Positions 29,977-62,053 of a DNA stretch of 64,000 nucleotides are shown one piece after another (the stretch's first letter is position 1; each line of letters begins with the position of its first letter). The notes below the pieces were generated by a model, which saw only the letters and a list, made by a program, of their open reading frames with translations, did not search any database and had not been told where the DNA came from. Position numbers and translations under genes: made by a program. Location of the stretch: positions 248,001-312,000 of the forward strand of contig NZ_LXYG01000002.1 in NCBI RefSeq assembly GCF_001650905.1, written 5' to 3'. The DNA comes from Balneola sp. EhC07 (lineage in GTDB: Bacteria > Bacteroidota > Rhodothermia > Balneolales > Balneolaceae).

Positions 29977-30069
29977 GTCATTCCTGCGCAGGCAGGAATC
30001 TGGATCGAATTTAAAAACAATTAGTGCCAAATATGAGATCTAGATTCCAGGCATTCGCCGTGGAATGAC
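29977..30069. repeat. inverted pair of AGAT/ATGAC palindromes (empty pair)
   Basis: The left unit (29977-30001) reads GTCATTCCTGCGCAGGCAG and ends GAATCT; the right unit (30042-30069) begins AGATTCCAGG and ends TGGAATGAC. Each can fold alone and the two face each other across a 40-base spacer. The outer ends GTCAT/ATGAC and inner ends ATCT/AGAT are shared with other repeats of this window. The layout resembles REPIN elements. Confidence 0.75.
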
Positions 30070-33383: not shown

Positions 33384-33472
33384 TAGCGCAAGCGTCACGC
33401 TTGTGCGGAAATATTTGGTCTAGTAAATAGAATCTAAACACCACAAAGATCCTGAAACAAGTTCAGGATGAC
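33384..33472 (+). repeat. composite direct repeat, left copy
   Basis: 86 bases (33384-33469) match 34587-34672 at 81 positions. The unit starts with the dyad GCGCAAGCGTCACGCTTGTGC and ends with the palindrome AGATCCTGAA/acaag/TTCAGGATGAC (33447-33472). The two copies bracket the DoxX-like gene. Confidence 0.85.
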
Positions 33473-33507
33473 CCTGATTTTTAAATCTCATCAAAAACCA
33501 GTTGTGT

Positions 33508-34586: not shown

Positions 34587-34672
34587 TAGCGAAAGCGTCA
34601 CACTTGTGCGGGAATATTTGGTCTGGTAAATCGAATCTAAACACCACAAAGATCCTGAAACAAGTTCAGGAT
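34587..34672 (+). repeat. composite direct repeat, right copy
   Basis: The second copy of the 86-bp unit at 33384, with five substitutions. It stops inside the ATGAC flank: the palindrome reads to CAGGAT and then diverges, so this copy is truncated at its right end. Confidence 0.85.
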
Positions 34673-34732
34673 TGTAGATGTTAGATAATTCGATGACAAA
34701 ATTTCTTTATACCAACCTCAATATTCCAAGCT

Positions 34733-34760
34733 GGTCATCCCGAACTTGTTTCGGGATCTT
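34733..34760 (-). repeat. left inverted palindrome of the GIY-YIG cassette
   Basis: GGTCATCCCGAA followed by CTTG and TTTCGGGATCTT. The 28 bases are the exact reverse complement of 35117-35144. The core differs from the 33447 unit by a T-A to C-G exchange in both arms, which keeps the stem. Confidence 0.9.
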
Positions 34761-35143
34761 ACGTAAAGACTTTTAGTCTGTTCTTGTTTACCATCCTCTT
34801 AAGGTATCATACCAATCCTCTAACGTTGGATTGTTTTGCTTTACCAGATTCCATTTCCACTGTTTATGCCAATTCTTTAGTTGCTTTTCCCTTGCTATAG
34901 CATCACTTATAGTATCGTATTCTTCCGCATATATAAGAATGGTTAGTTTATACTTTGAAGTAAATAAAGAGCCTTCTCCCAGTTTATGTTTCCACACTCT
35001 TGAATGAATGTTATTGGTAACTCCGATGTAAATCGGAGTTCTTCGGTAGTTAGTAAGAAAGTACACATAGCCTTTGTTCATAGTAAGTAAGACCGTTTCA
35101 AGAGCAATTCCTTACAAAGATCCCGAAACAAGTTCGGGATGAC
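34734..35143. mobile_element. candidate GIY-YIG element bounded by inverted palindromes
   Basis: A 410-bp unit: left palindrome (GTCAT outward, ATCT inward), one complete GIY-YIG nuclease gene on the minus strand, right palindrome (AGAT inward, ATGAC outward). Orientation of the ends is the same as in the small pairs at 29977-30069 and 57867-57958. No target duplication is obvious. That it moves is inference from this shared architecture. Confidence 0.5.
34788..35081 (-). CDS. single-domain GIY-YIG endonuclease
   Basis: A 97-residue protein made only of a GIY-YIG domain (COG2827/YhbQ group). Visible: the first strand GYVYFLTN (GIY position), YIGVT (YIG, residues 18-20), the catalytic arginine near 28 in HSRVWKHK, and the catalytic glutamate near 65 in AIAREKQLKNW. 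Active-site residues look intact, so it should cleave or nick DNA. It lies alone between two perfect inverted 28-bp palindromes, 27 and 35 bases from its ends. The cellular role of this family is unsettled. Confidence 0.9.
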   Translation of the reverse strand: MNKGYVYFLTNYRRTPIYIGVTNNIHSRVWKHKLGEGSLFTSKYKLTILIYAEEYDTISDAIAREKQLKNWHKQWKWNLVKQNNPTLEDWYDTLRGW

Positions 35144-35144
35144 C
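35117..35144 (+). repeat. right inverted palindrome of the GIY-YIG cassette
   Basis: AAGATCCCGAAACAAG followed by TTCGGGATGACC; exact reverse complement of 34733-34760. It can fold as an 8-bp stem (ATCCCGAA/TTCGGGAT) with loop ACAAG. Confidence 0.9.
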
Positions 35145-35223
35145 CTTATATATTTTACTGTTCATAAACTGTCAGTGAATTACCTAACATCTACAAGAAT
35201 GACTAACCTCTGTGCTTTAAGCC

Positions 35224-62011: not shown

Positions 62012-62053
62012 ATATACATTAGGGACGTATCGCGATACGTCCCTAATGTATAT
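62012..62053. repeat. perfect 42-bp palindrome
   Basis: The half-site ATATACATTAGGGACGTATCG is followed at once by its exact reverse complement, with no loop. It lies 22 bases after the M16 peptidase stop. The inner GGGACGTATCG...CGATACGTCCC has the look of a dispersed genomic palindrome. No T run follows, so it is a weak terminator at best. Confidence 0.9.

Follow-up and report, generated by a model that had tools for sequence, protein, structure and literature searches.

The GTAG class of bacterial REP sequences has its own enzymes, the RAYTs (TnpA-REP), which are tyrosine nucleases. GIY-YIG nucleases are known from other settings: Slx1 cuts branched DNA, and the domain is classically found in homing nucleases. 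Repeats of the CGTC type occur widely between bacterial genes, and no enzyme had been named for them as of 2013, when Di Nocera et al. catalogued them as repeats that 'apparently lack a dedicated transposase' (PMC3733652). This superfamily, which takes in dRS3 of Neisseria and RPE-4 and RPE-6 of Rickettsia, is characterized by an unpaired CGTC (or TGTC/CCTC) at one end, a stem of 8-9 bp with A-T at the first two positions, a loop of 4-5 nt, an arrangement mostly as head-to-head dimers, and a tail consensus CCA that fits most members, not all (PMC3733652). The original prediction knew of no described system in which a GIY-YIG nuclease is combined with such repeats. No paper joining GIY-YIG with REP, REPIN, RAYT, dRS3 or COG2827 was found by title, abstract or term counts in a literature of which most subscription papers and preprints were outside reach, and a 2025 survey of REPs does not mention nucleases; the repeats themselves, however, belong to the published CGTC superfamily.

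The window analyzed here is a 64-kb stretch (64,000 nucleotides) of the genome of Balneola sp. EhC07. As predicted, the segments 34733-34760 and 35117-35144 are reverse complements over 28 nt with 100% identity. An inverted-repeat search of the window identified them as its longest perfect inverted pair at a range of up to 1.5 kb, for which the chance expectation is about 1e-9 (arithmetic estimate). The prediction that each arm can fold by itself was also confirmed, both forming a hairpin whose stem is 8 bp and whose loop is 5 nt, with z scores of -4.1 and -4.7 relative to shuffled sequences. In the left REP (34733-34760, plus strand), the tag GTC (34734-34736) is followed by the stem 34737-34744/34750-34757 (ATCCCGAA/TTCGGGAT), the loop CTTGT (34745-34749) and the tail CTT; the right REP (35117-35144, minus strand) is its perfect reverse complement. 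The 5' foot of each hairpin is an unpaired GGTC, that is, the GTC tag preceded by G. Each arm is a CGTC-type REP: GTC stands on one fixed side with a variable first base (G here), stem and loop have the published dimensions, and the two REPs form a head-to-head dimer. They differ from the published superfamily in their tail, CTT in place of CCA, and that superfamily was described without a dedicated transposase.

The sole gene between the arms is an intact open reading frame on the minus strand (34788-35081) encoding the predicted GIY-YIG protein of 97 amino acids, which matches PF01541 (E=1.3e-13) and no other family; none of the NCBIfam models, including the UPF0213 equivalog, matched it. 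The catalytic-type residues Y7, Y18, R28, H32, E65, K69 and N84 are conserved across the family. Five of them (Y7, Y18, R28, E65 and N84) are invariant across 27 homologues and correspond to the catalytic Tyr, Tyr, Arg, Glu and Asn of the domain. The structure model has the GIY-YIG fold with high confidence (pLDDT 93). Its top structural hits, none with E<0.001, were UPF0213 protein BH0048 and the branched-DNA nuclease Slx1, and a profile search of the PDB returned distant relatives only, 1zg2 (BH0048) and 1ywl (EF2693). The dN/dS values of 0.08-0.33 between gene copies, including copies at different loci, indicate that the gene is under purifying selection. The whole REP-gene-REP unit spans 34733-35144 (minus strand), and its homology to two other places in the same genome (C20:301489 and C7:36553) stops at both borders.

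With the REPtrons and REPINs of the REP/RAYT system, the unit shares the presence of one small nuclease gene between inverted tagged hairpins within a few hundred bp, the existence of non-autonomous paired copies, and a REP sequence that tracks the enzyme clade. However, its enzyme is a GIY-YIG protein matching PF01541 alone, whereas RAYTs are HUH tyrosine nucleases, and its tag is (C/G/T)GTC in place of GTAG. UPF0213/COG2827 proteins (1zg2 BH0048, 1ywl EF2693), Slx1 and the N-domain of UvrC have the same fold and catalytic residues, but are treated as fixed cellular proteins, whereas the window gene is mobile and bounded by REPs. Selfish use of a GIY-YIG nuclease is also found in homing endonucleases of the I-TevI type and in Penelope-like elements; the window unit differs from these in having no intron, DNA-binding tail or reverse transcriptase, and in carrying hairpin repeats at both ends. 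An arrangement of REPs with a nuclease gene is already known, and what is new here is a REP together with a putative cognate nuclease from an unrelated enzyme class.

Outside the 28-nt pair lie further inverted repeats of 26 bp (34673-34698 and 35170-35195), which are the ends of a larger element of 523 bp (34673-35195, TGTAGATGT...ACATCTACA), a MITE carrying the unit. Comparison with the precise empty sites of sister copies revealed 5-bp target duplications, AGGAT on the left (34668-34672) and AGAAT with one mismatch on the right (35196-35200), the latter followed by the GAC of an interrupted REP. This REP (34648-34672, minus strand) was split by the MITE, and its GAC tag is now at 35201-35203; inverted-repeat search and folding located an intact sister repeat, a single REP of the same family (ATCCTGAACTTGTTTCAGGAT), at 33446-33473 on the minus strand. 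An 86-bp stretch ending in this REP is duplicated with 94% identity (33388-33473 and 34587-34672), the second being the copy split by the MITE. The TGTAGATGT...ACATCTACA ends occur at about 58 sites in the genome, often paired around unrelated contents. Insertions with empty sites in relatives lie in a GTCAT-type REP, right behind GTC, with a 5-bp duplication: the site of the copy on contig C17, GTC|ATTTC|GAGC, is uninterrupted in three relatives (G001, G002 and G007), and that of the copy on contig C18 (duplication AGAAT/AGAAG) in G007. It is this outer layer alone that has the hallmarks of a DDE-type transposon or MITE, namely terminal inverted repeats and, as the empty sites show, short target duplications; a transposase of the TGTAGATGT...ACATCTACA family was not found. 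The 523-bp repeat was also considered as the element proper and rejected, because other TGTAGATGT pairs hold different contents and insert precisely into REPs. The window copy is a REP-gene-REP unit nested in an unrelated REP-targeting MITE, a layer that the original prediction had missed, and the dispersal of the window copy and about four others, five own-genome copies in all, is best explained by the MITE. The evidence on the nuclease from the window itself is therefore limited.

REP sites elsewhere in the Balneola genome were studied via searches and individual stretches. DNA resembling the unit is present at about a dozen further places, many of them at contig ends, as would be expected for a repeat that interrupts assembly, and the copies fall into two groups. 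In inner-only copies, homology runs exactly from GGTCATCC to GGATGACC; these include C20:301489 (95% identical), which sits within a 1.6-kb stretch absent from relatives, and C7:36553 (about 73-76%), and the left border of the inner unit is visible in a copy at a contig end (C19:1-202). In the second group, homology extends out to 34673 and 35195. Three copies (C2:230175-230386, C16:299069-299281 and C17:120160-120370) have kept both ends and lost most of the gene, and are REPIN-like internal-deletion derivatives. Allowing up to two mismatches, the genome contains the hairpin pattern 78 times, mostly without the gene, compared with 0 times for the reversed pattern, and stems and loops are swapped between copies with pairing maintained (CCC/GGG, CCT/AGG). 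Many head-to-head REP pairs are 56-190 bp apart, and the gene-bearing pairs about 370-383 bp. Two small pairs enclosing 36-40 bp had been proposed as non-autonomous copies of the unit. One was found, a REPIN-like head-to-head pair at 29977-30069 with a spacing of 38 bp, but its arms (29977-30002/30041-30069) are imperfect and belong to a different GTCAT-tagged REP class (GTCATTCCTGCG...), and the second was not confirmed; the proposal of non-autonomous copies holds instead for the internally deleted derivatives.

Homologues of the gene are patchily distributed among relatives, being present in 28 of 59 genomes at up to 17 places per genome. Inverted-repeat scores between their two flanks reach 78, compared with a maximum of 25 in 127 control ORFs. 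A cross-phylum scan of bacterial and archaeal genome contigs, for which a 5-sequence alignment served as the query (a 27-sequence alignment was too diverse), yielded 80 loci picked by protein alone. Inverted flanks scoring at least 30 were observed in 33 of 78 genes of this set versus 9 of 480 other ORFs. In a motif-free test of all 1024 pentamers, each sought upstream with its own reverse complement downstream, the inverted pair GTCAT (outside)...ATGAC ranked first in both gene sets. This pair flanks 42 of 94 genes in the relatives of the window (45%, versus 2 of 49 other ORFs or 4%, p=1e-7) and 38 of 74 in the cross-phylum set (51%, versus 12 of 410 or 3%, p=2e-25), the control ORFs being mechanical reading frames from the same loci rather than curated genes. 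Swapping flanks between loci served poorly as a control in the cross-phylum set, where GTCAT..GAGCG..GAAG repeats recur in unrelated species, and other ORFs of the same loci were therefore used. According to the record titles, positive loci come from Bacillota, Actinomycetota, Verrucomicrobiota, Planctomycetota, Chloroflexota, Cyanobacteriota, Acidobacteriota, Patescibacteria, Omnitrophota, Bacteroidota/Ignavibacteriota, Calditrichota and Pseudomonadota. The flanks that the original prediction expected around COG2827-type genes of Balneolota and Bacteroidota thus extend well beyond these phyla, although about half of the homologues have no clear inward tag pair. Plasmid records with the gene include Azospirillum lipoferum, Novosphingobium aromaticivorans, Sinorhizobium meliloti, Sphingobium, Shinella, Rhizobium and others; 14 of 16 genes in plasmid records have inverted flanks scoring at least 35, mostly CGTCATCC-type palindromes, and the positives include species with published CGTC REPs (A. 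lipoferum, N. aromaticivorans and S. meliloti). In Neisseria gonorrhoeae, dRS3-type repeats flank a GIY-YIG gene with the nearest tags facing the gene, opposite to the usual orientation. On a Planktothrix agardhii plasmid, the gene lies among GTCATTCTGAG repeats between an MmeI-type restriction gene and the DISARM gene drmA.

Comparison of flanking repeats with the encoded proteins indicates that the REP sequence follows the nuclease clade rather than the host genome. Between genomes, the mean similarity of flank REPs stays at background (about 11-13) below 50% protein identity but reaches 29 for 60-70% identity and 39 for 70-80%. Genes residing in the same genome score 12.9 when their clades differ and 36 when they share a clade. 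The Spearman correlation of REP and protein similarity (0.281) exceeds that of within-genome REP shuffles (0.127, sd 0.036, maximum 0.247 of 500). At least nine copies of the REP class of the window were present in 14 genomes, and the matching gene clade was found in 12 of these 14 versus 1 of 45 others (p=1e-9; 1.3e-6 within the family alone), shared ancestry being corrected for only incompletely in these tests. Two genomes (G004 and G009) have 20 and 24 such REPs with the matching gene absent from the assembly. Of 84 REPs, 80 carry GTC at the 5' foot and 4 have no tag; relative to the asymmetric loop, the tag keeps to one side (0 reversed). When copies are aligned, the alignments stop most often at offset 0/-1 from GTCAT.

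We lean towards the view that these loci are mobile REP-nuclease units, in which CGTC-type REPs have as their cognate enzyme a single-domain GIY-YIG endonuclease related to UPF0213/COG2827, which may play for them the part that RAYT/TnpA-REP plays for GTAG REPs. Because genes of this family sit between such repeats in many phyla, the GIY-YIG nuclease is the strongest candidate to date for the enzyme that a large class of bacterial repeats had lacked. The original prediction of an autonomous element with a GIY-YIG nuclease in the RAYT role is sound as regards a mobile REP-gene-REP unit of REPtron architecture; that the nuclease itself mobilizes the REPs is what we infer. In such a mechanism, the protein would recognize the unpaired GTC and the hairpin, extruded as a single strand (lagging strand) or as a cruciform, and would nick or cut at the hairpin foot. 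The freed or copied REP-gene-REP, or in trans REP-spacer-REP (REPIN), would then be pasted elsewhere by host repair or replication. The window copy was in addition brought to its site inside the REP-targeting MITE. The wider proposition has about an even chance of being right: that small cognate GIY-YIG endonucleases gave rise to, and mobilize, a whole GTC-tagged REP superfamily of many phyla through structure-specific hydrolysis at tagged hairpins, without a recombinase of the DDE, tyrosine or serine type. Against the REP-nuclease unit stand the homologues without a clear tag pair, the REPs of G004 and G009 without a matching gene, the copies that ride inside other elements (five in the Balneola genome and about 14 in Legionella gormanii, see below), and the chemistry, since GIY-YIG enzymes hydrolyze DNA and are not known to pass through a covalent intermediate of the kind used by TnpA-REP. 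With a candidate gene named, linked to REPs in many phyla and followed in its clades by the REP sequence, a protein of 97 residues and a hairpin of 28 nt now suffice to put the origin of these REPs to a direct test. If the assignment is true, the REP lifestyle evolved on at least two occasions around nucleases unrelated to each other, and if the enzyme proves to be the mobilizer, the units represent a new class of prokaryotic mobile element.

A further point against the REP-nuclease unit concerns its empty sites. Same-genus genomes yielded no precise empty site, marked by a simple target duplication, for the inner unit or the REPIN derivatives; each species has its own REPs at these intergenic positions, so that the junctions were unreadable. 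In favor of the REP-nuclease unit, it is absent from sister plasmids of Azospirillum, Sphingobium, Shinella (present in some, absent in others) and Sinorhizobium, as well as from G030. At the fnrL locus of Sphingobium plasmids, three states were observed: REP-gene-REP, nothing, and a single double-tagged palindrome. The last is GTCACCCCGGGTCAAGCCCGGGGTGAC in TomTYG64, with a similar one in TomTYG74, and Sinorhizobium K101 has the double-tagged palindrome TCATCCTCGGGCTTGTTCCCGAGGATGAC where S. meliloti Ak57 has a truncated and then a full unit. At the TomTYG64 and K101 loci, the palindrome corresponds to the left half of the left REP joined to the right half of the right REP. Such alleles invite an alternative, which we rate as unlikely yet ahead of the other rivals, namely a homing cassette: its nuclease would cleave palindromes tagged at both ends (GTCAT-stem-loop-stem-ATGAC), and double-strand-break repair would copy it into them. 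The unit ends would then be half-sites, and the REPs landing or leftover sites rather than transposon ends. The classical homing role of GIY-YIG domains and the exchange of loops and stems between copies agree with it, as does the presence of a double-tagged palindrome at two loci (L412, and K101 in L419) in the place of REP-gene-REP in sister alleles. Double-tagged palindromes (GTCAT/C...A/GTGAC) lie at L412 637-663, L310 235-261, L259 1291-1317 and L289 277-310. However, those with perfect arms are rare, numbering 4 across all loci compared, where a single REP class by itself has 80 copies with one tag, and a double-tagged allele is either a homing target or a deletion scar. Further alleles without the gene lack a REP altogether: this is so in TomTYG72, TomTYG65 and G030, and also at the sufB-sufC locus of A. 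oryzae, A. ramasamyi and strain B510, where A. lipoferum carries the unit between the two genes. A REP-bounded GIY-YIG gene also splits the tight sufB-sufC operon in Shinella sp. PSBB067, a location in two genera that reflects either a shared site preference or coincidence.

Somewhat less likely still is that gene and REPs are passengers, moved by the MITE, by an IS66-like insertion sequence or by REP-REP recombination, with the nuclease serving a separate function. The window copy within a MITE with 5-bp duplications speaks for this, and so does Legionella (Fluoribacter) gormanii, which has 17 matching places. There, 14 copies (L358-L371) share a common end, ...GGGATGACGTGGGGAGTTAC, with unique DNA beyond it; they are nearly identical, the GIY-YIG gene adjoins the REPs, and most lie at contig ends. 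The ends of the element are GTAACTCCCCAC...GTGGGGAGTTAC. One copy has the matching inverted left end with a possible 8-bp duplication (TTAAAAAA), and another a fragment read as an IS66-type transposase. The L. gormanii unit rides inside another, IS66-like, recently active element, which makes passenger status a serious rival in some lineages. It fits poorly with the inner-only copies in the Balneola genome and in relatives, with borders at the tag, and with a REP sequence that tracks the nuclease clade even inside one genome.

Chance was rejected, and so was the very improbable reading of the hairpins as ordinary terminators or mRNA stabilizers of a repair gene that is fixed in its place and resembles UPF0213/YhbQ. 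The hairpins do lie near both gene ends and the family includes UPF0213 relatives of unknown function, but there is no T-run, the 78 pattern matches are mostly gene-less, the tag orientation is fixed, and strain comparisons show the gene to be multicopy, patchy and absent at sister loci rather than ancestral and fixed. Elsewhere in the window, at 62012-62053, lies a perfect 42-bp palindrome with arms of 21 nt and no spacer (ATATACATTAGGGACGTATCG/CGATACGTCCCTAATGTATAT).
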